Shown here piece by piece: positions 7,893-54,575 of a stretch of DNA of 64,000 bases. Origin of the DNA: Macrotrachela quadricornifera (taxonomy: Eukaryota; Rotifera; Eurotatoria; Philodinida; Philodinidae); contig JAJEKB010018239.1 of the NCBI GenBank assembly GCA_022393335.1, positions 1 to 64,000 of the forward strand. Direction: 5' to 3'. Made by a program: the position numbers and the translations under genes. The notes under the pieces are model-generated. The model ran no database searches and was not told where the DNA came from. It saw only the letters and a list, made by a program, of their open reading frames with translations. Positions within the stretch are counted from its first letter, which is position 1; every line of letters begins with the position of its first letter.

Positions 7893-8465
7893 TTATAATA
7901 TCATGCAATTTTCATTCATATCAGTGCAAGTATAAATAGTATACATACAATTTTGAACGTCGACAATAATCTTGGTCACAAGCGATGTTGAATCTTGTCG
8001 AATAGTAATCTTTAATGGCTTATTGAGTGCTTCTGTTAGCCGTGCCAGTTCTGTATTCCATCGAAATAAATCTGTTTCAAAAAAGTCATCTTCTTGTCGA
8101 CTGTGACGTAGTTGATCAGTCAACTTGTTCAATTGAATTTCTATCTCTGCAATATGGCCAGTAGTATACTGAAATAATAGTTGTCGGGCTTCGTTTGCTG
8201 CTTGTCGAATCGTGTTTATTGAGTCATTTTCCCACGTATCAATTTGTTGCATCAATGGATCAAGCTGAGGGCGAGAATTTTGTTCAATAAGTGTTTGCCG
8301 AAAGAGATCACGAGCCGCTTCTACATCATCCAACTGTTTGCAGAGTTCTTGATGATGATCAGTCACATGACTAAAACAAAAATCTTTTGAACAACCTCCA
8401 CATCGTAATGTAGCTTTTTCCTTGTTACATATAGTGCAACGATTTTTATTAGTAGTTGTAGCCAT
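7893..8465 (-). CDS. Small zinc-finger and coiled-coil protein (B-box/TRIM-like)
   Basis: A single exon of 190 codons. Residues 10-38 form a compact Cys/His cluster, C10-x2-C13-x8-C22-x2-C25-x4-C30-x2-H33-x3-H37-H38, which fits a B-box, HIT or MYND-like zinc-binding module better than a RING. Residues about 40-150 are charged, hydrophobic-spaced helix typical of a TRIM-type coiled coil. The C-terminus (about 150-190) is short. Larger proteins with this head-to-coil layout usually carry an NHL, B30.2 or similar domain next; none follows here, so this is either a short family member or a truncated copy. No introns. Function is unknown; a scaffold or ubiquitin-ligase-like role would be conjecture. 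Confidence 0.75.
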   Translation of the reverse strand: MATTTNKNRCTICNKEKATLRCGGCSKDFCFSHVTDHHQELCKQLDDVEAARDLFRQTLIEQNSRPQLDPLMQQIDTWENDSINTIRQAANEARQLLFQYTTGHIAEIEIQLNKLTDQLRHSRQEDDFFETDLFRWNTELARLTEALNKPLKITIRQDSTSLVTKIIVDVQNCMYTIYTCTDMNENCMIL

Positions 8466-9426
8466 GTGTTGAGTATTTTAACGATCGTATATCAAGAATA
8501 AAACTATAGAAGAAAAATAAGAAAAGAAGGCTGTCATATTTCACCATATGTTAACATGTGACTCAAAATATGAGTCATTCTTCAATATACATACATTATT
8601 GTGGGAGTTAGAATGCTCGTTACCAACTATTTCCCCTTTATTCAGAAAAACACTCACTATATATACTAATAAAACGGGCAAAATAACACACTATAAAATA
8701 TCAGGAAAAATCCGAAGAAAATAACATGGACAAAAGAATAATGACCAAAAGAGTGGTGGAATAAAGCCGCACTCGTAAAGGATATGGAAGAAGAAGAGAA
8801 AAAAAATGATAGGAAAAATCCAAAATCATAGCGAAGAGAAAAGAGAGGGAGTGAGAACAAAAGTCTATGTGAGGTTCGAGTCATCTATATATGATGACAG
8901 AACGCAGAAAAGATGAAAAAAAAGAATGTCTTATATCCTAACAGTGAGAAAAACGAAAGAAGGAAAAAAAATGCTTTTGATGTAATAATTTGTACAAGCG
9001 AAAGATTTATTCTCAATTAACATTGATTATGAGTTTAATACGCTAAGCATTATTTCATATAAGCAATTGATCAGACTATTACATCGAATTTAAATTAGTT
9101 TCTACTAAAAGTTTGCAATTATTATAATATGACCACAGTGACATGCATCTTTCTCATGATATCACTTCTTGATCAATAGCAATTCTTTTCATTCAATGCT
9201 ACAAATACTACAAAGATAACGTGAGCAATATTATACTATTTAGATCACCACCAAAAGTTTAATAATATAAATTTCAAGATGATTTTCTTTGACAGCAAAG
9301 CTTAGTTGTTTTTTTTTATCTGTGTTTCTGAACTTTCCAAGAAGATTAGTCACAGTCTAATGCAAACTGGATTTTAGCATTTGTTAAGATTGTCTTGTAA
9401 ATACACTGATCATTTCTCAAGAGTGA

Positions 9427-18509: not shown

Positions 18510-19775
18510 TCAATGTGTGTCTAAGGTCGTTTCATTCAAAAAGTCGAACGCAGTGAGTGCAAAAATTTCGCCAAGAGCTCGGAGCTCTTCAATATAGACA
18601 TGTTCGTCGGCTGCGCCCATGTTATGCGAGGTTAAACCACATACAACTGAGGGCACTCCATGTTTACGATATAACCGAGCATCCGATGCTCCAACCCGCA
18701 TGTTGACCACCGGCTCGATGCCCAGACGATACTTACAATTTTTTTCGAGTAGTCTTATTATCTCGTGGTTAGGATCAGTCCAGCTAGGCTCGTATCGTCG
18801 TGTTATTTCCAGTTTTACGCCAGGATGATTTGAGACGATGTCCACAATTCGACTTTCGACTTGAGCGACTGACACTCCTACTGGTAAGCGGACATCAGCG
18901 GTTGCGGTAGCATGATCTGCAATTAGGTTCGGTAAGTGGCCTCCACTTATGGTTCCAAACGTGATCGTTACGGTTCGAAGAACATCACTTTCACCTTTTC
19001 CATTTAACAACTCGGATCGTGCAGTAGAAGTAGTAATAGCATGGAGAACTTTGGGTGGAGAAAGCACAGGAAAATCGCGCAGGACCTTTAATTCTTGCAT
19101 AACATCCATCAATTTCTCAATAGCACTCTCTCCTCTGTGTACATGAGCAGCATGGGCCGACTTGCCGGTCACCTCAAGACTCAGCCAGATCATGCCCTTC
19201 TCACCAAATCGTAATACTTGTGGCGAGCCAGTATCTGCACTGATCATGGCATCGCCAGCTGCGTGAGGGACAGCTGTCAATAGATATTGGGTGCCGTTGG
19301 TACCCATGCTTTCTTCGTCTCCGACAAATGTAGCGACAATTTCTCCAGAAAAGGATTCGCGAATTGCAGCGAGAGACCGGAGAGCAAAGATAATGGCGGC
19401 GATGCCACCTTTCATATCCGATACTCCAAGGCCATACAACTTTTCCTCCCTCTCCTCGCCGTTAAAATCTGTGGACCATTGTTCGGCGTTGATGAGTGGG
19501 AATGTGTCCATGTGCCCATTAAACACCAACCGACGTCCTTGCCGACCACTACGAATTCGGACAACCAGATTCATGACGTGAGGTAGAGTTCGATAACGCT
19601 CGACTTCCGCATGGATACCTTCAAACATAGACTCGATGACGCTGGCAATGCCATTTGTATCGCCGGGTGGATACATGCTTGGGACTGCTATCAGTGCGCG
19701 TGTGATATCGACTACTTCGTAACTAGATTGAGCAAGAGTGTTAGCTAGATCTTTACGCAATGCAGTTGTATCCAT
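18510..19775 (-). CDS. M20 family metallopeptidase (ArgE/DapE/CPG2-like), likely horizontally acquired
   Basis: A single 421-codon exon of full length for bacterial M20 enzymes, which hydrolyse amide bonds of acylated amino acids or dipeptides with two metal ions. The metal and catalytic signature is complete at the front: FNGHMDTFP (H88, D90), GVSDMKGG (D120 as bridging ligand), GDEESMG (E154 as general base, E155) and ADTG (D181). The C-terminal ligand region reads SHNMGAADEHV instead of the usual A-H-x-x-x-E. The dimerisation lid (GKSAHAAH to about residue 300) is present. Base composition differs sharply from its surroundings: 31 of the 60 bases at 19501-19560 are G or C. No intron is present, while most neighbours have several. 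An acceptor-like TTTTTTTAG lies 29 bases before the ATG. Substrate cannot be told. Transfer from bacteria is an inference needing a phylogeny. Confidence 0.93.
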   Translation of the reverse strand: MDTTALRKDLANTLAQSSYEVVDITRALIAVPSMYPPGDTNGIASVIESMFEGIHAEVERYRTLPHVMNLVVRIRSGRQGRRLVFNGHMDTFPLINAEQWSTDFNGEEREEKLYGLGVSDMKGGIAAIIFALRSLAAIRESFSGEIVATFVGDEESMGTNGTQYLLTAVPHAAGDAMISADTGSPQVLRFGEKGMIWLSLEVTGKSAHAAHVHRGESAIEKLMDVMQELKVLRDFPVLSPPKVLHAITTSTARSELLNGKGESDVLRTVTITFGTISGGHLPNLIADHATATADVRLPVGVSVAQVESRIVDIVSNHPGVKLEITRRYEPSWTDPNHEIIRLLEKNCKYRLGIEPVVNMRVGASDARLYRKHGVPSVVCGLTSHNMGAADEHVYIEELRALGEIFALTAFDFLNETTLDTH

Positions 19776-22767
19776 ATGAACAACTTAATGATGTACGCTT
19801 CTTTGTCTAAAAAAATGATAAGAACGACTCCGTGTATGGACAGCCCAAGAAAAGCACGGTCAAACTCACTTTCACACTAACTACAATACACTTACTTGCA
19901 GTGAAGAATAAGAAAAAGAAAAATGAAGAGCTGCAAGCACACGATAGCATACAAAAAAGATAAAAATAACTAGTGCCGATTTTTTATCTTTCTGTTCTCC
20001 GTCGGACAATATTGCACGTCATCGCCTACTGTCGAGGGGCTCACTTGAAATAATTAACTGCTTTTGAGCTCATAGTATGTTCATAAAGGAGTATCAGAAA
20101 GGCTAGGAAAAGCCTAAAAGAGTTAAAATGTTCGTTCTCATAGATCTTTAAAGATGAATTATAACCTTTCTACTGAGTTTTGAACCATTTTTTCGATATT
20201 GATAAAAAAAACGAATTGGGGAGTTTTAACTTGAAATCTTGAACATTCGTAGATCTACTCATCTTTAGAAGGCTTCCATTTAAATGTTACGTAATTTTAA
20301 ATAAAAACTAAGTAAATAAGTTCAATGTCCTAGCAAAATATTAGAATTAAAATGACATAAATATCTAAGTAAGAAGTTTAATTCTATAGTTATTGTACTA
20401 ATAAAGCTTTTATTGCTTTTTGTGGTCGTCTTCTTTTTCTTTTTTTTCATCCAGTAATAGGCATACCCTCTGTTAATGAAAGTGGTTTCGAAAACTTTAA
20501 CGTCTGAGAATAGGAGGTATTTTTGAAAAGAAGAGTAACATTCAAAAGCGTCAACATCTTAAATCTGTACTCAGGCACACCCTTATTCGCACGAATCAAT
20601 GAAAATAGATTCTTAGAAACTTTAATTTTAACGGAGAATTTGTCAATTTTAGCGCATTCGTATATTGATATGAGCTTTGAATGGTAGTGAAAGCCTTCTT
20701 TTAACAAATTATCTCCTCTGTACACTCACACCTACACTCTAAATTTTAAGTAAACTTCCAATGACTGATACTTATATAAAAATAAGGTGAATGAATGTGA
20801 CTATTTACTAAAAATGGAAATCACAAAAGAAATCTTGATAAACTAATATAGATCAAGTGTAAAAAAAACAAGAAACACAAAAAAGAAATTATTGCATTGG
20901 AGTATCTTCGAAGAAAAAAATATATGCATTCAAGCATGACATCAAAACAAAAAATATAGATGAAAAACACATCTATCGTGCTGACATTTCAATACATACA
21001 AAAGAAAATGGTCAGAGAAAATGTACACGTTATACTACCATAAAAAATTCATCCAATTTTGGGTATTCATACTTAGTTATTATCAGAAATTAATTTAGAT
21101 ATTTCTTATCTAACGTAACAAATATTTTTATTACTGAGAAACTATAACCTATCTGAGTGTTCAATATTTTCACTTAGCAATATCCAAGGGGGAAACAGCG
21201 GATTTGAGATTTTATAGATTTCAAATCCAAAAAAGATTTTTTTGGATTTTTGAGATTTTTTTGGGATTTAAATCCAAAAAAATCCGCTTTCCCCCTTGGT
21301 CGAATGTTAACAAATTTATTACCAAAATTATCAGCTCAAAAAGCGCTACAAATCCTGAAAGTTTCAATCGATTTGGACGTGATCGCCGGATCGACTGGCT
21401 AGATCCCTTGGGTACAACCTATAGTTATTATAGACGAAGAAAGCCGAAAACATCACTTATAAGTTTCAAGACCGCTCTCATTGAAAAACGTTGATGGTCG
21501 TTTAAGATATCAATTTTAGATAAGTATATTATCTGATAGCCTAAAGCCTAAACTTTTATATTCAATATATATTACCGGCCACCACGTCGATTTTTATAAT
21601 ATTTATTTGCGTGTTTCCCATCTCCTCCTTCTCCCATCTAAGTAAGTCGATCTTTGTGATAAAAATCGACATTACGATGTACATATGATTATGAAGTCTA
21701 AGGCGCAGAGTTTTACAATAAATGTGATTGTTAGTGACGTATTGTTTCTATGAAAGTTTCTGGATAGTTTTTAGCTTTTCTGCCAAACAAATCGATGTTT
21801 TTCTAACATACAGACAAATACTGCGAATAAGACGTTTAAAATTTCTTTTTTCTTTATTAAACTATTTTATCACCAAAGCAGAATTCTCGACTCACTTTTT
21901 TATGTGTATATGGAAGAATACGTTTAATTGTAGAACATGATACGGTTCGATTTTAAAAGATTAGATTTATTTTATCAAGTAAGAGAAGATTTTTGTCAAG
22001 AAACTTTGTTTTTTAGAGAATTATTCAGGAGGTGTTCAACTTTCGACCTGTTTCTGTCGTATAAAAGCTAACAATTTGAAAAGAAAATGGTTCTATTATG
22101 TCTTGCATTCAGGTTTGTTCTTTGTTACAAGATATTATGAAGAAGTATAACAGAAATTTTGACGGTTGGATGTGTAATTTTTGGCCTTAGTTGAGTGAAT
22201 ATCTTCTGAAAACTTTTTGATATTGAGCTGAAAATTTTACCATAATCTCTTTACTGCAGCTCGAATACAGTCTCAAAATTTCATACAATTTGAATGTACT
22301 CGGATCAATATCGATTTTTGAGTGTGGAAGGAATGCCTTAAGTCAAAATATTTTGTTCTATAGAAATCTATTGATGGATTAGCTCAGCTAATTGAGGATA
22401 CAATAAAATCCTGATCTGCTCACTCGTTTGAACGTCCAACTTGTGAGCCTGTAAAAGGTTTTGTGGGTGGATCTGGGAATGGGTTACAAGCCAGGCAGAT
22501 TGATCTGAAATGGCTCAATCCACCAATATCCTACTTTCCTAAATGAACGACCAGACGACAAAGCGTTTTGACATATCTTTCAAATTTCTCAAAAGCATGA
22601 CGTGAGAAAAATCTGAATGCTATCATATATTGAGACGCATTGAACACATTACTACTTAATTGAGATATTCACTTCTTATTAAACAAGATATATTTAAACA
22701 ATTTTTTAAGTTCTGCAGTCTTCTTGCTGATTAGTCCTCATTTATCTAAAGTGTTTTTCCCTTAAAG
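19776..22767. other. Intergenic region with one small inverted-repeat element
   Basis: Holds the 116-bp element at 21184-21299. A 92-codon frame on the minus strand (20447-20725) lacks an ATG and a recognisable product and was not accepted. Upstream exons of the membrane-protein gene that follows should lie here or farther left, but none could be placed. Confidence 0.4.
21184..21299. mobile_element. 116-bp MITE-like inverted repeat
   Basis: The left end CCAAGGGGGAAA, followed by CAGCGGATTT, mirrors the right end AAATCCGCTTTCCCCCTTGG. The interior is a stack of ATCCAAAAAA/TTTTTTGGAT palindromes. No gene is inside and no clear target duplication was seen. Confidence 0.8.
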
Positions 22768-36478: not shown

Positions 36479-36888
36479 GTTGAATATTTATTATTTGCCT
36501 TCTCACTTAATAAAAGACGCACACAAACATGCCTATATTTATCACGTTACTGTTATCTACATAGTGGTTAAAAAGTAACTCAGTATTTTAAATTGTTTAT
36601 TACTATCAAACAACAAAAGATATCTTGCTGATTTTTTTTACCATTTTGAAGTATGGACCATAACATTTGGTTCTAGATAAAACAAGTCAATTGATCGTTT
36701 GACTATATAGGACGAAGCACAAATTTCATCTAAATAATGCTGAAAATAATTCATTATTTTGAATAGTTTATTATCCCTATAGGGTAGTTCCGTGGGATGT
36801 CAAACACTATTTACACGAAGTTCTCTAAATCGTTTCATTTATATCTCATTTGATAGACCTCTATGAGTTATGTGTACAGTAAAAAAAT

Positions 36889-37752
36889 GAGGATCTTTTG
36901 ATTTATATTTTTTCACCATCGAAAGAACTCGAGGCTATTCCAAATATATATTTTTGTTTCTGATGACCTATACTATTTGCTCATATGCGATTATTTAATA
37001 TTCGACGACCTAGTAAAAATATCTTCTTGACACAGTGGAAAGCAATAGTAAAATGGTGGTTCGAATGAAATTTCTTAAGCTATATTCCATCATTTTCTAA
37101 TGATGTAGATTCTGTAGAGCCTACGTGACTCTATCAGATTCTATTTATGAAATCTCTTACCCAATGGACAATAGTTGAGAAAAAAACCGCACACTTTTTC
37201 TCTAGTATTACTGGCACTCTAAAGAGGGAATGATTCCCCTTTTAGACCACCAGTAATAATAGAGAAAAAGTGTACAGTTTTTTTTCTCAATGAATCTGAT
37301 AGAGTCACGTAGGCACTACAAAATTCACATTTGCTTTCTACTGTATCAAGAAGATATTTTTAGTATTGCCCATTTCAAAATAAAATGCAGTCGATTGTTT
37401 GTTGAATAACTCAGTATTCACTCTTCCTGAAAAACTTATGATCATTTTATTGAATTTCGACTTGAAAATTTGCCCATAGATAGATCTAGTGACTCATAGA
37501 ATAGAGTAAAATTTCACTTGAAAATATCCATAACGAAACAGAGTCAGACACCAATGTTCAGAAATATTCTTACAATCTTCTAAAAAAGTTCTCTTCTAAT
37601 GACGAAAACTCGAACTCGATAGCGATCATCATTGCTGAGTTATTCAACAAACAATCACATATGGACAGGTACTATAGGTCATCAGAAACAAAAATATATA
37701 ATTGGAATAGCTTTTAGTTCTTTCGATGTTGAAAAAATATAGATCAGGAGAT
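36889..37752. mobile_element. Foldback element, 0.86 kb
   Basis: Outer arms of about 100 bases (36889-36996 and 37650-37752) are imperfect reverse complements, sharing TTTTTGTTTCTGATGACCTAT and ATCGAAAGAACT. A second inner pair (about 37388-37412 against 37632-37656, GATTGTTTGTTGAATAACTC) lies on the right side. An independent palindrome sits at 37014-37364. No transposase was seen. This looks like one foldback inserted into another. Confidence 0.75.
37014..37364. repeat. Inner palindrome of the foldback element
   Basis: The arms run from AAATATCTTCTTGACACAGT on the left to the matching ACTGTATCAAGAAGATATTT on the right, with an inner GAGAAAAAxxxCxxCACACTTTTTCTCTA pair closing on a loop near 37214-37238. 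Confidence 0.8.
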
Positions 37753-38340
37753 TATCAACAGAAATAAGTAAGATAATCTAGTTCATGACATTGGCTATAT
37801 CTTAGAGAAAGTTATTTTCTCAACAAGTACTTAACACTGTTAATTCAATCAACATTTACATATTGTTCGTTTTTCGTTATTATTCTTACTCTTCGTGGTA
37901 CCATTCCATTTTGACATACTCCTCCTAATAATATTTACAAGCTTTATCATCGACTATGTGCAATGCAAATAATTCTTTTTGGTATAACCAGTATTATATT
38001 ATTTAGTCTTTTGTGTGTTACTAAGCATTTTATATGATTTAAAAAAAAAACATTATGAGCAAACATATGTTGTTTAACTTTTTTTATATAAATTATTCAG
38101 TTTGAAATTTCTGGAAAAAAAATATCATAATCATGTGTCTATGTAGACATAAATTAATAATATTATCAACACAATGTTAATTAAAGTTATAAACTTTATT
38201 TCTATATTATCAAATCAAAAAAAAATGTTAGAAGAACATATAACATAATAGAAAAGAAAAAGATTAATGCCAAGCAATGTCTACGACTACTGTTTTTTTT
38301 ATATCTGTTGTAGCTAGTTATCTACATATTGCTCAACAGG

Positions 38341-40846
38341 TCAAAAAATAAGATCTTTAGCAATAGGTAAATTATTAAAAAAATGAAAAAGTATATTAGC
38401 ATAGGAAAGAATTGATGTTGTCATTGAATTTCTATCTGACAATTGACCAAATAATCGATGATAAAATCGATAAGGTGCTAAGGCAAAATGAGCAACTTTA
38501 TGAGATTTAACAAGAGCATAACATGATGCATGAACATTATTAACAATAATTGTACCTTGTTCAGTTAATGGTGCCATAAGACCTTGTTTATAAACATCAG
38601 TTATATCAATAATTTCTTCCCATTGTGTTTCATTTTCATGATTTGATGATAAAACAAGTATTTCATCACCTTTAATTAATTTTTCAGCCCAAATAAAACC
38701 ATTTTTACGTTGATGTATTAAATGACGTTTTGATAATTCAATAATTGAATTTTTCGTACGAATACGTTTATATAAAGCTTGTTCATTAAAATCACGATGA
38801 AGAAATGCAATTATTGGTGAATAAACAATTTGATTTTCTTCATTAATAACACGAACTTTTGAACCAATTTCTAAAGATGATAATTGAGTTTTACCAATAT
38901 TAAGTACATCAACAGTAGCATCTGATGGAAAACATTCCACCTCTAAATAAATAATACATGTAAAATAAAAATAATCTTATCTATAATTAAAATAATAAAC
39001 TTACGTTCACAATAAACACCCTTATTTTTATTACGACATTGACAATAAAATTGATTATCTGGTTTTCGTATACAATGACCACCATTTAAACATGGTGATG
39101 GATTACATGGATCATTACTACATGTTGGACCTGAAAATTCAGGTGGACAACTACAACCACCATAAGGTTCTTCATTTGTTCGAATACATGTACCTAAAAA
39201 CAAAAAATTTTAAAAAGACAATTCTTAATAATTCAAATATTACCTCCATTAAGACAAGGAAATGCTGAACAAAAATCAGTTGAATCACATCTTGGTCCAG
39301 CAAATCCTGTTTTACAAATGCATTTATTAGCTACACAAACACCCTTAAAGAAATATTTCAAATTGAGAACAAACTTTTTTTTTCCCATTATTTTCTTTAC
39401 CTGTGTACCATGACAAGTAGCATCTCCACATGGTACATAACTAAATAAATTACAAGTTAAACCACGAAATACAGGTGTACATAAACATTGTGCTAAAATA
39501 AAAATTTTCAAAAAAACAATTTTATAAAAAAAGAAATTTTTATTTCTACCTTGAGTATTTTCTAATAAAATACAAGTTCCACCATTTTTACTAAAAAATC
39601 AATATTAATTTTAAAATCAAATCTATCTGCTGTTGTTTTTTTTCCTTTTCTTACCAAGGATTTGGATTACAACTAACAGCTCGTACAGATATTTCACAAT
39701 AAAGACCTCGATATTCAGGTGCACATCGACAATAACCTTGAAGATCTCCAACTTCTACACAAGTTCCATCATTTAAACATGGACTTGATGAACAATAACC
39801 ATTTGGTAGTCGAACAGCAATCGTTGCATTTCTATATGAATTTTCACAATAATCACCAATATAACCATCACGACAAACACATATTCCCTATGAACAAAAC
39901 AAAAAGTATTGATCGTTATTTTTTAAAAATTTTCTCTAATCTAACTTTTGTTGTTGCTGTATTTGTAACAAAACAAGTTCCACCATTTTCACATGGATTT
40001 GTTAAACAAAAAACAAATTGTGAATGATTACCAGTTGTAACAGCTAAACTATTACTTAAACTATTTGATCGAACAGTATTTTCATTAGATGAACTTCCTA
40101 AATTCGATATAACAGCTAATGTTTCAGCATCAAATTGTTTATATTCAACATGTGGTAAATTATCATGAGATTTTGCTTTTAATTTCTTTTTTTTATATTG
40201 ACAATAATCACCAGAAAATTCTTCAGAACAATTACATCGTGCACCATAAGCTAAAAAAAATAAAATAAAATATTCTTTATTAGAATTTTCTTTTCTGTTT
40301 TTTTTCAATAAACCTGTTTGTGAACATGTTCCATCATTGTAACAACTATTAGATGAACATAATAGTAAAATTCGACAATCTTTACCGGAATGATTTGGTG
40401 GACATAAACAAATATAATCAGAATTTGCTACATCAACACAAGTACCACCAAACCAACATGGATTAGTATCACATTTGGCAGTTGTATTACATAAACGTTG
40501 ACACGTTTCACCACAAACACCCTTAGAAAAAAAAATTTACTTAAAGAAAAAAACAAATTTTATATTAAATCATAAAATATACTTTAGCACAATGACAATT
40601 TTTCTTTACTAATCCATTTGAAGAACGTAATAATTCACATTCACCACTACGACAATCATCCATTTCACAAAATTCTTTAAAATACAAAGAAAAATTACAA
40701 TACAATATTATTCTATCATTTATTATTTACCAGCATTGATAAAGGAACAAATTAAATAAAGAAAAATAATAAATAGAAAATTCTAAATTATATATTTTTT
40801 TTTCTATTATAATTTATTTAATATTCTTATTTCTTACCTTCATCAT
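38341..40846 (-). CDS. Secreted EGF-repeat protein with C-terminal Hedgehog-type Hint domain
   Basis: Eleven exons give 640 residues: 40846-40838, 40782-40731, 40674-40583, 40521-40314, 40250-39946, 39887-39655, 39590-39550, 39492-39401, 39343-39244, 39193-39005 and 38942-38341. A signal peptide (about residues 1-20) is followed by roughly nine EGF-like modules (repeats of PCxNGGTC and C-x-C...G..C), then a Hint domain starting at Cys444 in ECFPSDATV (compare GCFPGSATV in Hedgehog). Also present are S511-x-x-H514 (usually T-x-x-H), APLTEQGTIIVNNV and ASCYA. The tail, FALAPYRFYHRLF and then a SILSYANILFHFF helix, resembles the sterol-recognition region after Hint in Hedgehog. In that family the Cys attacks its own peptide bond and a lipid, cholesterol in Hedgehog, is attached to the N-terminal part; the EGF part may likewise be released or lipid-tagged here (inference). 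No Hedge signalling domain is present. Confidence 0.9.
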
Positions 40847-41358: not shown

Positions 41359-44153
41359 TTAAATCGTCTCTTCAGAAATATATTTTGTCGATACATGATT
41401 TGTACTAATTATTATATCAGGATTTTGATTTCTTTGTCGTTCTTTCCATGGTGTTATTGCTAAACGAAATCTCTATTTCAAACAAAAAAAAAAATAATAT
41501 TTTAATTATATAAATTCATATTTTTATTTTACCGTCATAAAATCTCCTTGTTCAATTAGTAATCTATAAATAGCAACAACTGGTATAAATATAATCGATG
41601 ATAATGCAAACATCCAACCAAGTAAATGACTCCAATCAGGATACTAAAATAAATCATTTTCGATTAATTACAAATCAAAAAACAAAACCACTAAATACCT
41701 GATAAAAAAATGGATCAGTTAATTTTCCATATGTTGGACTAATATGTTGAATTAAACCCGAAACAATAATACCCTTAAAATATAAAAAAAAAATATTATC
41801 TTATATAATTTCGAATGTTTTTTTAAATATTTACTCCAAGAAATACAGGTGCAGCAATACACCATGTTCCAAGCCAAAATATTCCTGGTTTTGTTCCAAG
41901 CATTTCTTTAACATCTTCACTTATACGTTTTATTCCATAGAGCCATGATACAGCTATTGCTTCAAAAAAGACCGCAATAATAATTGAATAAAATGCTAAA
42001 TATTCATTTTATATTTTAATATTAAAAACTATCGAAAGAAATAAAAAAAAAAATTTTTTACCAGCATAATTTTGTAATAATTCAACAAAATAAACTCCTG
42101 CTTCCGTACAACTTGGAATTCCAATAAGAAAATAAAAAAGGAATAATATTCCAACAAACTTTTCTCGATGTCGTCGTAAAACCGGAAATTCATCACTTAA
42201 TGCTGTAATTATTGCTTCACTTCCACCAAACTATATAAAAAAAATAAAATAAACATTTTCAATCAAAATAAAAAAATATTACTAAATTACCGATGAATCT
42301 AAACCAAGTGTTAATAACATTAAAAAAAAGAATACAGACCAAACAGGTGCCCATGGCATTGTTGCAATAGCTTCAGGATAGACAATAAAAACAAGTGTTG
42401 ATCCTTGTTCAGCTACATCTTTTATAGCTCGTCCTGATATTTCACTCATATAACCCTAAAACAAATTAATCAAATTAATATTCTATATGATTTCAATTTA
42501 CCAAAAACATAAATATTACAAAACCACTTGCAAAACTTGTTAAACTATTTACTGCTACAGTTATCATTGCATCACTAAAGAAAAATATTCACATAATTAT
42601 TTAAAAACTAAGAGTTTTTTATATACTTACCGAAAAACATTATGATGAAAATCATTATAACTTGCAAATGCCATTAATACACCGAAACCTGGTCCTAATG
42701 AAAAAAATGTTTGTGATGCTGCATCAACCCATACAGATGCATCATTAAGTTTAGTTAAATCTGGTCTAATATAATATTCAATACCCTTCATTGAACCATT
42801 TAAAAATAGACCACGTACCATTAAAATTGTTAAAACAACATAAGGAAATAATGCAGTAAACCAAACAACCTAAAGCAAAAAGGAAAAGAAAATTATTTTA
42901 AATAAATATTAATTTTTATATTGTTACTTTGCCTGATGTTTTAACACCTTTCCACATTGAAAAATAGCAAATAATATAAATTAAAGCAAGACAACCCAAA
43001 TTTTCCCAATTAATACTTCCTAAACTTCCTAAAGTAAAATTACGTGTTTTATCTAAACGATAAACTTGTAAACTAAAATTTAAAAATATTATAATTAAAT
43101 TACAAAAAACCAATATAAAAAATTGTTTTACTGAAAATATTCTTGTGATGGTGAAACAATTTTCAATTGTGTTAATTTTTCTGAACAATTTTCATATAAT
43201 AAATTTTTTTCAAATGATTTTTGTTCACCATAATTTGTTGGTAAATAATCTATTGTATTATTTAATGTATCATTTAATTGATTAATACAATTTTCTAAAA
43301 AATGACGTCGTGTATTAACTGTTGAACAATCTCGTGTATTCCATCGATGATCTAAGATATGTTTTTTTTTTTTAAAAATATTTTAAAAATTAAATAATTA
43401 CATACTGCATTCACTCCATGGTAAAATTTTTCTGAATGATGCAAATAAATAATAAAGACCCCATGATATGACAACATTATAATAAAAATCAGTATAAAAT
43501 GCAATTATAGTTACAGCCCAACCAATTCCAGCTAATAATGGACAAATTTTTCTCCAACATGTTATTGCACCTTGTCGATAATATTGTCCAAGTAATAATT
43601 CCAAATAAAATAAAGGCATACCGCCGAGTACAACTGAAAGAATATATGGAATAAGAAATGCACCTAAAATGAAGAAAATTTTAGATAAATATAAATAGCA
43701 AAAATAAAAGATATAATAGATTATTTTTAAACAAACCTCCACCATTTTTATAGCATAAATATGGAAAACGCCATATATTAGCAAGATCAACAGCAAAACC
43801 AATAATAGATAAAAGAAAATCAAGTTTTTCACTCCATTGTTCACGTATTTCTGTTTGTTCTTCATTTGATTTATTTATTTTAACTTCTTTTGTATTAATA
43901 TTAATAACTGTTACACTATGTTTCTTTTTTTTATTTTGATCATCTTCTGTTAAGATATCATCATGTATCATAGGTGCAGAATTTGTACGATTATTTGGTA
44001 ATAGTGCATTTTCAAAAGAACGTCTTCGTGTCACATCATTCTCATCGCCTGAAAATGAAATTTTATTTGAAAAATGTTTTTTGATTTTATCAATATTAAT
44101 AACTTACGTTCAGCGATATGAAGACTATGATGACTTAATATTCGTTTAACCAT
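41359..44153 (-). CDS. SLC6 monoamine-type neurotransmitter transporter
   Basis: Thirteen exons give 695 residues: 44153-44108, 44048-43737, 43663-43406, 43351-43132, 43072-42928, 42869-42631, 42574-42502, 42455-42291, 42230-42062, 41995-41835, 41773-41699, 41643-41533 and 41472-41359. The sequence follows the Na+/Cl--coupled SLC6 fold. TM1 is [33 protein letters not shown] is next, and a Cys-containing glycosylated loop follows TM3 ([14 protein letters not shown]). Later landmarks are [20 protein letters not shown] (TM6), [14 protein letters not shown] and PDWSHLLGW near the end. Asp103 in FAVD corresponds to the amine-binding Asp of dopamine, noradrenaline and serotonin transporters; amino-acid carriers have Gly there. 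The best call is therefore a plasma-membrane monoamine transporter, clearing amines from synapses. Which amine cannot be told. All TM exons are present and no lesion was seen. Confidence 0.93.
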
Positions 44154-50100: not shown

Positions 50101-53100
50101 CTAACGACATAAATGTTTAACAACATCTTTAATTAATATCACATTTTTCATAGCATATTTTTTCTGAAGAAATTCTTGTGTTTGTTTCATTTTATTTGAA
50201 TTAGCAAGTATTAATGTTGATGAATGATTATTATCAATTAATGGTGATATATATTTTTCAATAAGATTAAACATAAGTTTTTCATTATATTGAAATAAAT
50301 TTATTTCATTTAATAAATTTTGATATTTTTCAATTGAATATGTATTAAGATATGAATTAATACAAACATTTGTTATACGACCTAATGTTGCTAAATGTTC
50401 CGTAAGTGAACACATTGTTAAATTTTGTGCAGCATTTATACGTTTTGAATCAAAATTTATTTTATGTTCAACAAGATTTTTAAGTGTATCCATTGCACTT
50501 ATATATGCTAATTTTAATTGAGAACATTGAGTTATTGAGAGTAAAATGAGATTCATTTCAAAATCAAAATCAAATGCAACACCATATGCATAACCATTTG
50601 TACGACATGCAGTCCAAAGTGGACCATTTTCCATATCAAGATAGTTTGATAAAATTAATAATGGAACAAAATCTGTTTGAGATATTGGAAGACGTGACCA
50701 ACGAATAACATAACTAAAAAAAATTAGACGTATTCGTTTTCACTGTAATATTTTATTTATTTACCCTGATTCTTCATGTGGACAACCAATAATAGTTACT
50801 GGTGATAATGTTGGAATATGTTTTTCTTTTATTTCTTTTATATGATTATTTTCAATATTAATTTGACTTTTTATTTGACATTCATTTATAAATTCTTCAA
50901 TAATATGCCAATTATCTTTTATTATTTTCATATTTCCACATATAGTTAAATGTATATTTGATAAATTTTTTAAAATAAATAATTTTATAGATTGAAGTTT
51001 TAATAGAATATCTTGTTGATATTTTTTCGGATTTTTACATATTTTTTCTAATAAATTTTTTTGTAAAAATATATTCATTTGATGATAATAATGATTTGAA
51101 TTTGTTGAATTAATTAAAGAATTAAAATATGATTGATATATTATAGAACCATCTTGTAATAATTCAATAAAATTTTTTAATAATTTTTCACATTCTTCAA
51201 TAATTATATTAAAATCATTAAATATTGTACCAAAAAGTACATAACGAAAATATTCAATTGTATTTTTATAAATTTCAAAATTATTTATTGATTGTAAAGA
51301 TATAATAAATGTATCAATATAATGTGTACTAACATAATTTGATTGTATTGGTGATGATGATGATTGTCCACTTGATACATTATATTCAATTATATCGCGA
51401 GATATAAGTTCACAAAAATTATATTTATCTAACTTAATATTTTCATATTGAATTGATGTATGAAAAAGTAATTTAGAAAAAAGTGGAAAATATAATTGAA
51501 GATCATGAGATAGATGTTGTAATGGAATATGTAAAGTATATTTAATAAATTGACTTGTTGGACTATGAAAAAGATCAATATGATCATTATTAGAATCATA
51601 TACTATTTCTGGTAGATGTAATTGATTATTAAATGTTACTGATGGATTGGAAATATTAGCACATTGAGATGATGATTGTTTATTATTTGAACGAGCTTGA
51701 TCGAGTTCATTTTTTAATTTTTCAAGACCTTCTGAACCTAAAGTTTTAACACGTTCGGCAATTCGTTGTTCTTCTTGTTCTAAATAGAAGAAATTAAAAT
51801 GAAATTTTCAATTAATTAAGTATATAATGGAAGATTAGGTGTGTAGTAAATTAAACGAGCTAATTCATAAGATCCACCAGCTCGTTGACTTGTTTAGCAT
51901 ACATTTCAACAACCTTAATCATTCATAATTAGTTATTAGAGGTATAATCCCTTTGTTTTGTTTGAGGAACTCTGCAACACTGAAACTATTCAGATACTTA
52001 TAAAAATTTACAATCTATATGATTAGAAAATTTAGATTGTCATACTCGTCAGAGGTATCAGATAAAGTTTGTTTGATATCAGCGCAATTCTTCGCAGCGT
52101 TCCTTTTTAACATCTATTATGTCGCTGTATAGATCGAAGCTGGTTGCAGTTTGTCATTAGTTTTATTTAATTAGAAAAGAGAACGTAACAGAAGATAACT
52201 AGAACTAAGATCTTATGTAGGATAGTCTGTAAGTTATTATTTACTTTATGAATATAGATTAATCAGATTAGCAAGATGAATTTAACAATTTGATTTTACA
52301 CAAAATATATTCTTTTACCTTGTTGTTCTATTAATAATTCATTACTTGGTTTAAGTAAAATAATAGTTCTTTTTGATGAATCCCATTCTAAAAGATACTT
52401 TTTAATAAGTTCATGCCAATATGTAATTGGTCGATTTAATAAATTTTCTAAATAAGTTTTATTTCGTAAGAATTTATGTAAATTTTGTTCATTATTATTT
52501 TCATGATTTATATTTGATAATGATAATTCTGATATATGATCTAAACAACATATTTCAGTAAGAAAACTATATGGTTCATTTTCAATATCATTTAAATGTA
52601 ATTCAATTTTCTTTTTAATATTTCGTTGTAATTGAATATATAGTTGTTCATTATCTATTTGAGAATTAATAATCGAATAAAGTACAGATGAATATTTATC
52701 CGCAACAATTGTTAAATTATCAATTTCAACACCTAAATAAACCGAGAAAAAATTTAATTATTTTGAGTAATTTTAGAACATATTAGAAAACTTCAGTTTT
52801 TTTTTACTGTAAATGAAATATTTTATAAATAAGTCTAATAGATTGTTTCAAGATAAGAAAATAAATATTTTCAAACCTTCGAATGTAATTGTTAAAACTC
52901 TTTCTGGATAATTATACCAATCATAATCAATAGATGAACAAAGTATATTTGGTATTTCAATAAATTCTTTATAAAAAATTGAAATATCTTCATCAAATAA
53001 TGTTGTTAATAAAATATCAAGTGCTGTATATATTTCAATTTCATAAATTGATTCTAATCGATAACCAAATGCAACTTGTCCTAAATTTTCATCATTATCT

Positions 53101-54575
53101 TCAACAGGATAACAAATTTCTTTATATTCATTCATATTACGTTGAAATATTGAATTATCTGTTTCAATTATTGGTAATAATGATGATGGTGATGATGGAA
53201 CAGATAAATCATCATGTGATACCATTAATTCTGAATCACAAAATGATGATTCATTCCCATCATTTGAAATTAATTGAACAGATAATTTTGTTGTATCAAC
53301 TGATAATAAATTTGTTTTTGTAATAGCATCTGATGATAATGAATTTTCATCAGAACTTGTTCGTTTTATTTCTATAAATGGAAATTTTTCATTATTTAAT
53401 TTAGTTTTTTTTCGTTGATTTTCATTAAATGAATAATTAATAGAAATATTTCCATTCTTTATAAATTCTGAAGAAAAATTTTCTTCTTCAAATTTAGTTA
53501 ATATATTCATTATTTCATCAATATTTATATCACTACCACATAAAATAATAGCAATATTATTTGGTTTATAAAATTTTTTATGAAATATTTTTATTTTATC
53601 TAATGTTAATTCATTACGTATTGATTCAAGACGACCACCAGATTCATAATAATATGATAATTTATCTATCCATAAATCACGTAATATAGAATAAATAAGA
53701 ATTTCATTTGGTTGATTTTCACTTGATTGTATTTCACTATAAACAACACCAGCATCATCACCTGTTTCACCGGATATATGATGTACTTCAGTTAAATAAC
53801 AATCATTTGTTAATAATGGATTAAATATATGATCAAGATAAACTGGAATAAGTGTAGATAATGAATGACGATTAATAGTTGTTAATTCATATGTTGTCAT
53901 ATCACGATATGTTGTAGCATTTGTACCCAATGAATAATATTGAGCAGAAATATAATCAAGATAACCTTGATGAGGATAGTTACGACTACCCATAAAAATT
54001 AAATGTTCTAAATTATAAAAATAGTTTAAAGATTCTTCTTCTCTATCTTAAAAATCCATTTTCAAAACATGGTAGAACTATAGTGGAGAGCTTACGATAA
54101 AATTTGTAGTCTTATATCATGATCAAACAAAAATTAAAAAAGAGCTCATTTGATAAATAAGAATTCTCTGTCCAAATTCATTCTATACATTTAATTATTT
54201 GAAAGAACATATCAAGATGCAGGGATTATCATAGTTTCTTTTTAAAAGCAGAAAAAAGCTAACAAACTTAATTTAAAAAAATGATCTTTCGTAAGTACTG
54301 CATCTCGACATTGAGTTTGAACATAAAAAAATTACAGAGGTTTGATTTAATATTGATTTATAAATAAAAAATAAAATAATTATACCTAATGTATGTGCAC
54401 AACCAGTATCATCATATGGTTTTGTTTGTACACATATCTCAAGTTTAATTAAAGGTAATGGTATATTAACATGATATAATTTCATTCCCGTTTTTTTTGA
54501 TCGATATTTTTCAACATTAAATGCTTGTTCAGAATATGAAGTAATTAAATCAAAATTTGATTGTATACGAGCCAT
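50101..54575 (-). CDS. M16 family zinc metallopeptidase, C05D11.1/Sdd3-like
   Basis: Five exons, 54575-54386, 54007-52877, 52732-52319, 51779-50765 and 50713-50101, give 1120 residues. The inverted zinc motif HTLEH (H61, E64, H65) is split by the first intron but restored on joining. The second zinc-ligand Glu is in GVVYSEIQSSEN (E155). Around it are the family landmarks DDTGCAHTLEH, FMGSRNYP-x-x-G, TNATTYRDMTTYEL, LIPVYLDHIFNPLL, TEVHHISG and KFYKPNNIAIILCG. The size and the TEVHHI block fit the pitrilysin/insulinase subgroup of yeast Sdd3 and C. elegans C05D11.1, with four M16 modules forming a peptide-degrading chamber. Long low-complexity Ser/Asn inserts lie in exon 2 (about residues 260-360). 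No targeting peptide is evident, so it is probably cytosolic. Intron 3 (539 bases) and intron 1 (378 bases) are unusually long for this gene. An acceptor-like CTAG lies 18 bases before the ATG. Confidence 0.9.

Follow-up and report, generated by a model that had tools for sequence, protein, structure and literature searches.

Introduction

Hedgehog has been described as singular, or as the sole metazoan protein known, in carrying covalently bound cholesterol (PMC7242414, PMC3303847). Its C-terminal Hog domain is already known on new N-termini (PMC2362128, PMC9695228, PMC5103448). The nematode Warthog, Groundhog and Quahog proteins and the Enoplean Xhog carry Hog on unrelated secreted N-termini, with several genes per genome (PMC2362128), and Lophohog of molluscs and annelids, the Hogs of Nematostella and the choanoflagellate Hoglet likewise join it to novel N-terminal parts (PMC9695228, PMC5103448, PMC2362128). 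We describe here a gene of the bdelloid rotifer Macrotrachela quadricornifera in which a complete Hint domain and a sterol-recognition-like tail follow an array of EGF modules. This EGF-Hint gene lies in a stretch of 64,000 nucleotides (contig JAJEKB010018239.1 of assembly GCA_022393335.1, positions 1 to 64,000 of the forward strand), which is called the window throughout.

With fly Hh and human SHH, the window protein shares the Hint fold, the nucleophilic Cys, the His of T-x-x-H, the SCYA and APLT..GT motifs, the sterol region and the His-Pro-Arg of its first helix. It differs from them in that the EGF array replaces the Hedge ligand, His stands for Asp at Hint position 46, Ser for the Thr of T-x-x-H and Glu for the Gly before the cut, and in that the HWY of the second sterol-region helix is lost. 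The nematode Hogs differ from it in their N-termini (Wart, Ground, Qua or short peptides) and in two additional conserved cysteines. Lophohog, the Nematostella Hogs and Hoglet have no EGF array on Hog in the descriptions available, and it is by these descriptions only that they are set apart from the window protein; one Nematostella protein is described as a Hedge domain with two EGF repeats and no Hog.

In the open-licence literature, with subscription papers mostly outside its scope, we recognised no account of a rotifer protein that joins EGF to Hint, nor of a natural His46. What we have not met there is the EGF array on Hog, its conservation in bdelloids together with a like protein in Seison, and the fixed natural His46. 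If sterol-attached, a conserved EGF array on Hog would be a second cargo, unrelated to Hedgehog's; a later report of covalent cholesterol is said to concern Smoothened. The reuse and alteration of Hog tails in nature also becomes testable.

An EGF array joined to a Hog domain

The gene occupies positions 40846-38341 of the minus strand. Splicing yields 11 exons and 1,923 nt encoding 640 residues plus the stop, as the initial annotation of the window had proposed, and all 10 introns are GT-AG. Residues 1-20, which by eye form a hydrophobic leader, span exon 1 (40838-40846, encoding MMK) and exon 2 (40731-40782, with the hydrophobic core from residue 4). A cysteine-pattern scan then places a divergent Cys-rich module at residues 23-62, beginning in exon 3 (40583-40674), ahead of eight canonical EGF modules that start at residue 68, in good agreement with the "about nine" modules first counted. 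Exon 4 (40314-40521) holds the end of the divergent module, the first canonical EGF and the start of the second; exon 5 (39946-40250) holds an EGF end, a spacer without cysteine within the array (residues 138-201) and the next EGF start. Further EGF sequence follows in exons 6 (39655-39887), 7 (39550-39590), 8 (39401-39492) and 9 (39244-39343), and the final modules lie in exon 10 (39005-39193). The entire Hog domain, from Cys444 to the C-terminus, is confined to the last exon (38341-38942), which encodes the complete Hint domain, the sterol-recognition-like region and the stop.

Pfam searches of the protein matched EGF in seven stretches (E=3e-30) and Hint over residues 436-628 and profile positions 5-207 of 213 (E=1.3e-44; 152.8 bits, the cut-off being 29.7), bearing out the earlier assignment to Hint. 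Tandem six-cysteine modules after a leader are those of an EGF-repeat extracellular protein. Six of the EGF modules match C-x4-[S/T]-C, which we take to be the O-fucose consensus. Notch1 and Delta-like 1 lead the PDB matches of the EGF part, a result that would suit many EGF proteins. The earlier description of the array as Notch-ligand-like therefore holds for its EGF likeness and not beyond: the Pfam search of the protein, with matches considered at E up to 1, showed no DSL domain, though DSL matches occur elsewhere in the genome, and its identity as a Notch ligand was rejected. The Hedge domain (PF01085) is likewise absent from the Pfam matches of the protein, as had been claimed.

Conservation of the fusion

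A search of 5.8 billion proteins with the Hint part gave 415 candidates and returned six proteins, every one with EGF and Hint and with the junction at the same place. A second search, with the EGF part of one relative (P0003) as query, returned 27 proteins from 176 candidates. Eight of these are EGF-Hint proteins (P0001-P0006, P0008 and P0009); the remaining 19, Delta, Jagged and fibropellin among them, have EGF and no Hint among their listed Pfam domains. All three protein searches made detect only relatives with exact words in common; two of them, the one with the Hint part included, returned no Hedgehog protein and are therefore uninformative on distant Hogs. The EGF-Hint proteins come from Adineta ricciae (P0002, P0005), Adineta steineri (P0003), Rotaria sp. 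Silwood2 (P0004), Didymodactylos carnosus (P0006, truncated), Rotaria sp. Silwood1 (P0008, truncated) and Seison nebaliae (P0009, 1,043 residues). P0001, of 639 residues, is encoded on a contig of 2,064 bases. The window gene with its ten introns takes up 2,506 bases before splicing, more than that contig contains; the likeliest source of P0001 is therefore a spliced transcript, of a relative rather than of the window gene.

The genome of M. quadricornifera was also searched (450 Mb in 5,695 contigs, the window being contig C3166). Two contigs carry near-identical copies, which are probably haplotypes: C114 matches the window at 99.1% over 4.9 kb and C115 at 98.0%. A third, C4621, holds a duplicate with the 11 exons and phases of the window gene. 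These data bear on whether two adjacent genes, an EGF gene and a Hint gene, were mis-joined. Joining errors do occur at this locus, since automatic annotation fused a neighbouring SLC6 gene into P0006 and P0008. Nonetheless, mis-joining is scarcely credible for EGF-Hint itself: the junction is shared by all six proteins of the Hint search, P0001 is compatible only with the spliced form, the duplicate repeats exons and phases, and no Met stands ahead of Cys444 in the open frame to which the Hint exon belongs (38976-38341). Chance or wrong exon joining is ruled out by the splice model, the relatives' shared junction and the duplicate with the same exons; the EGF-Hint fusion is real.

Between the window gene and the C4621 duplicate, the ratio of non-synonymous to synonymous change (dN/dS) is 0.43 over the whole coding sequence and 0.45 for each of the EGF and Hint parts taken separately, and neither copy is interrupted by stops. 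The ratio was obtained by simple counting, and the genome is AT-rich. By this measure, both halves of the protein look constrained. What tempers this reading, besides the crudeness of the count, is the comparison with C115, where dN/dS is 0.81 on only 20 changes (5 synonymous, 15 not), too few to judge, and where all 4 changes in the Hint part are non-synonymous.

Seison nebaliae stands outside the bdelloids. P0009 carries His46 and S-x-x-H, has Ser ahead of Cys1, and by cysteine pattern contains 18 EGF modules, out of register with those of the window protein. Kinship of the two arrays was considered and set aside: the modules that match best come in a different order in each, and the arrays are not demonstrably homologous. 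In a tree including Seison, from which 10 of 44 rows (near-copies, partial rows and human fragments) had been removed beforehand, P0009 forms a long branch beside short SNYA Hogs at 93/92, not among the well-supported branches. Joining it with the bdelloid EGF-Hint clade was not rejected by the approximately unbiased (AU) test (p 0.344), so this like protein is only a possible ortholog.

Active site and sterol region

The window Hint domain contains ECFPSDATV, S-x-x-H and ASCYA, as first read. According to the splice model and alignment, the nucleophile at position 1 is Cys444 (38932-38934, minus strand, as are all positions in this section), preceded by Glu443. The S-x-x-H motif lies at 38722-38733 and SCYA, corresponding to the region of fly Cys400, at 38515-38526. 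With a profile match over the whole module, the Hint fold, Cys at position 1 and the His of T/S-x-x-H, the domain has the features of the Hint/Hog family (PF01079). It lacks the Hedgehog-type Asp at position 46, the general base (fly Asp303): this residue, encoded at 38797-38799, is His in all nine sequences of the EGF-Hint alignment, Seison included, and Asp in fly and human. The initial annotation had seen in the Ser of S-x-x-H an open question about the efficiency of processing. This Ser is kept in 7/7 aligned EGF-Hint proteins, in the copies in the same genome and in Seison, and is therefore no sign of decay. The changes of Asp46 to His and of Gly to Glu at −1, which had been missed, are larger open points for processing.

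Structure prediction supported the fold. A prediction from seven sequences was discarded (mean predicted local distance difference test, pLDDT, 43.4); after P0008 and Seison were added, the nine-sequence alignment gave a mean of 76.8, with 82-94 in ten-residue blocks of the Hint core. The top fold match was an engineered fly Hint carrying D46H (PDB 6tyy), tied with the wild type (1at0). The engineered protein shares with the rotifer protein a His at the general-base position and is reported to retain cholesterolysis with a widened choice of sterol. In the fly, however, D46H is a laboratory mutation, whereas the rotifer His is natural and accompanied by Ser for Thr and Glu for Gly. In the fixed His46, nature thus offers a way to test what was found in the laboratory, namely that activity survives the base swap and that the choice of sterol becomes looser.

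The sterol-recognition-like region (38344-38511) was delimited by the Pfam profile, which matches to position 207 of 213, by predicted helices and by alignment. It had been called complete, and this is half borne out. The His-Pro-Arg of the first helix (within 38490-38467) is kept in the 9/9 bdelloid-type EGF-Hint rows that reach the region, Seison differing, whereas the HWY of the second helix is replaced in the same nine rows by L-S/T/N-Y (L-S-Y in the window), at a place where the alignment is less certain than in the Hint core.

Proposed processing of the EGF-Hint protein

We favour, with confidence evenly divided, a secreted modular Hog protein whose EGF part would be released by its own Hog domain with a sterol ester. 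In the secretory pathway, the Hint fold would convert the Glu443-Cys444 peptide bond into a thioester, which would most likely be broken by the hydroxyl of a sterol, with His46 activating it in the stead of Asp46. The EGF part of about 420 residues would be freed with a C-terminal sterol ester and the Hog part of about 197 residues discarded. The sterol would then tether the EGF array to membranes or lipoprotein carriers and restrict how far it travels, much as with Hedgehog, and the array might act in adhesion, in matrix or as a short-range ligand. Judged from sequence, the thioester and cleavage steps are likely because the catalytic residues are kept. A sterol acceptor is suggested by the kept first helix and by work on D303H in the fly Hint, where cholesterol transfer is reported to be retained (PMC9163320), and the loss of HWY weakens this suggestion.

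A number of observations weigh against sterol release. Support for the window gene comes from sequence and predicted structure, and the prediction is of low confidence in the sterol region, with pLDDT of 43-64 in the helices of the last 60 residues. The nucleophile follows a Glu, not the Gly of Hedgehog. The Thr of T-x-x-H is Ser here, and T326A is strongly reduced in the fly (PMC9163320). Each residue of HWY, of which only Tyr is left here, is important in SHH (PMC7242414), and IHWY or IHW is found in several further Hogs of this genome. By eye, SHH first-helix residues Trp372, Phe377 and Leu382 are Val, Leu and Phe in the window protein, although the fly also has Leu at the equivalent of Phe377. 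The Seison protein, for its part, has SNYA for SCYA and Leu for the helix-1 Arg.

The main rival is a protein that cleaves itself without a sterol, the thioester being broken by water (or by an amine or thiol) and a plain, diffusible EGF array released. We find it plausible, if short of probable. In Hedgehog the acid at position 46 holds back premature cleavage and also activates cholesterol; here His stands in its place. D303 or D46 mutants are reported to cleave faster with dithiothreitol (PMC9163320, PMC13060885). The Glu at −1, the loss of HWY in 9/9 bdelloid-type rows and the variation of residue 46 and of the SCYA cysteine in the wider Hog family of the genome point in the same direction. 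Hydrolysis, however, has no need of the His-Pro-Arg region and the two predicted helices, which are kept in the bdelloid relatives, and D303H reportedly still transfers cholesterol.

The several changes relative to Hedgehog (Asp46 to His, Thr to Ser, Gly at −1 to Glu, HWY lost) could also mark a catalytically dead Hint, a folded, membrane-seeking tail on an uncleaved EGF protein. We consider this improbable. The changes are identical across the aligned relatives, and Cys1, the His of S-x-x-H and the SCYA of bdelloids remain, positions at which a decaying domain would be expected to vary; moreover, D303H is active in the fly Hint (PMC9163320).

Sterol release might be extended further, in a form that we hold unlikely. 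A natural base-swapped Hog (His46, Ser, Glu at −1) would load an EGF ligand with sterols that replace or supplement cholesterol. This would take place in a lineage that lost Hedgehog and multiplied its Hogs, as part of a sterol-tagged signalling or adhesion system that predates the split of bdelloids and Seison.

The Hog family and a possible loss of Hedgehog

In the M. quadricornifera genome, 110 Hint exon matches correspond to 72 places, counting haplotype copies, spread over 64 contigs. A profile search for Hedge (PF01085) gave 0 candidates; no control genome holding Hedge was searched, so that absence is not proven. The same genome gave exon matches to Wnt (45), DSL (15), the Patched superfamily (14, with a profile that also matches in three archaea) and Frizzled (8), indicating that exon-wise profile searching works here. 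Hedgehog may have been lost in this bdelloid. The apparent lack of Hedge together with many Hogs resembles C. elegans, which is without Hedgehog yet keeps Hog proteins (PMC2362128). That this pattern seems to recur in a phylum far removed, where the Hog places number in the dozens, makes it possible to ask by comparison why Hog domains persist when Hedgehog does not.

Among 34 rows from this genome aligned besides the window, which represent part of these places, 33 cover position 46, with 18 His, 10 Asp and 5 other residues (Thr, Arg or Lys), the last of which may be misaligned. The SCYA cysteine varies as well. A tree was built without column 46, after removal of 10 of 43 rows on the same grounds as above, and good support was reached by 13 of its 30 inner branches. 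On it, the nine EGF-Hint rows group together as a single, long-stemmed clade (100/99). EGF-Hint is one clade within a large Hog family. Among rows with Asp or His at position 46, at least four changes between them are required on this tree.

Other Hogs of the genome carry different N-termini, as read by eye from their open reading frames. Those on C4660, C4619, C4170 and C5657 encode a leader, a short secreted Cys-containing peptide and Hint in a single open frame, have SNYA rather than SCYA, and in some cases stand head-to-head. On C4660, C4619 and C4170, neighbours in opposite orientation share near-identical Hog parts and differ in their leaders, a pattern that gene conversion or recent copying would produce. 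Hogs on C2440 and C4582 have a small Cys-containing domain as N-terminus, and those on C1635 (near 8250-9191) and C4388 (near 320-1310) appear to begin with a basic tail, followed by a single membrane segment and then a Thr-rich stretch ahead of Hint. A partial Hint match (C898:506563-506817, minus strand; 35.4 bits, E 1.8e-6) lies within an open frame that is 8,488 residues long.

Genomic neighbourhood

Directly upstream of the EGF-Hint gene, on the same strand, is an SLC6 (SNF) transporter gene (41407-43874). Its later part (41407-42869, minus strand) was located by tblastn with the SLC6 parts of P0006 and P0008, and its upstream open reading frame gave a Pfam SNF match (43401-43874, minus strand). 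The arrangement recurs on C114, C115 and C4621, and the same order is seen as fused annotations in Rotaria sp. Silwood1 (P0008) and Didymodactylos carnosus (P0006), indicating that the neighbourhood is old. Downstream of the gene, positions 36888-37757 contain nested inverted repeats, perhaps a fold-back repeat element, with outer arms of 109 nt that are 84% complementary and an inner palindrome at 37180-37284. Elsewhere in the window, Pfam matches identify open reading frames for an M20 peptidase (18513-19784, minus strand) and an M16, insulinase-type, peptidase (52851-54047, minus strand).
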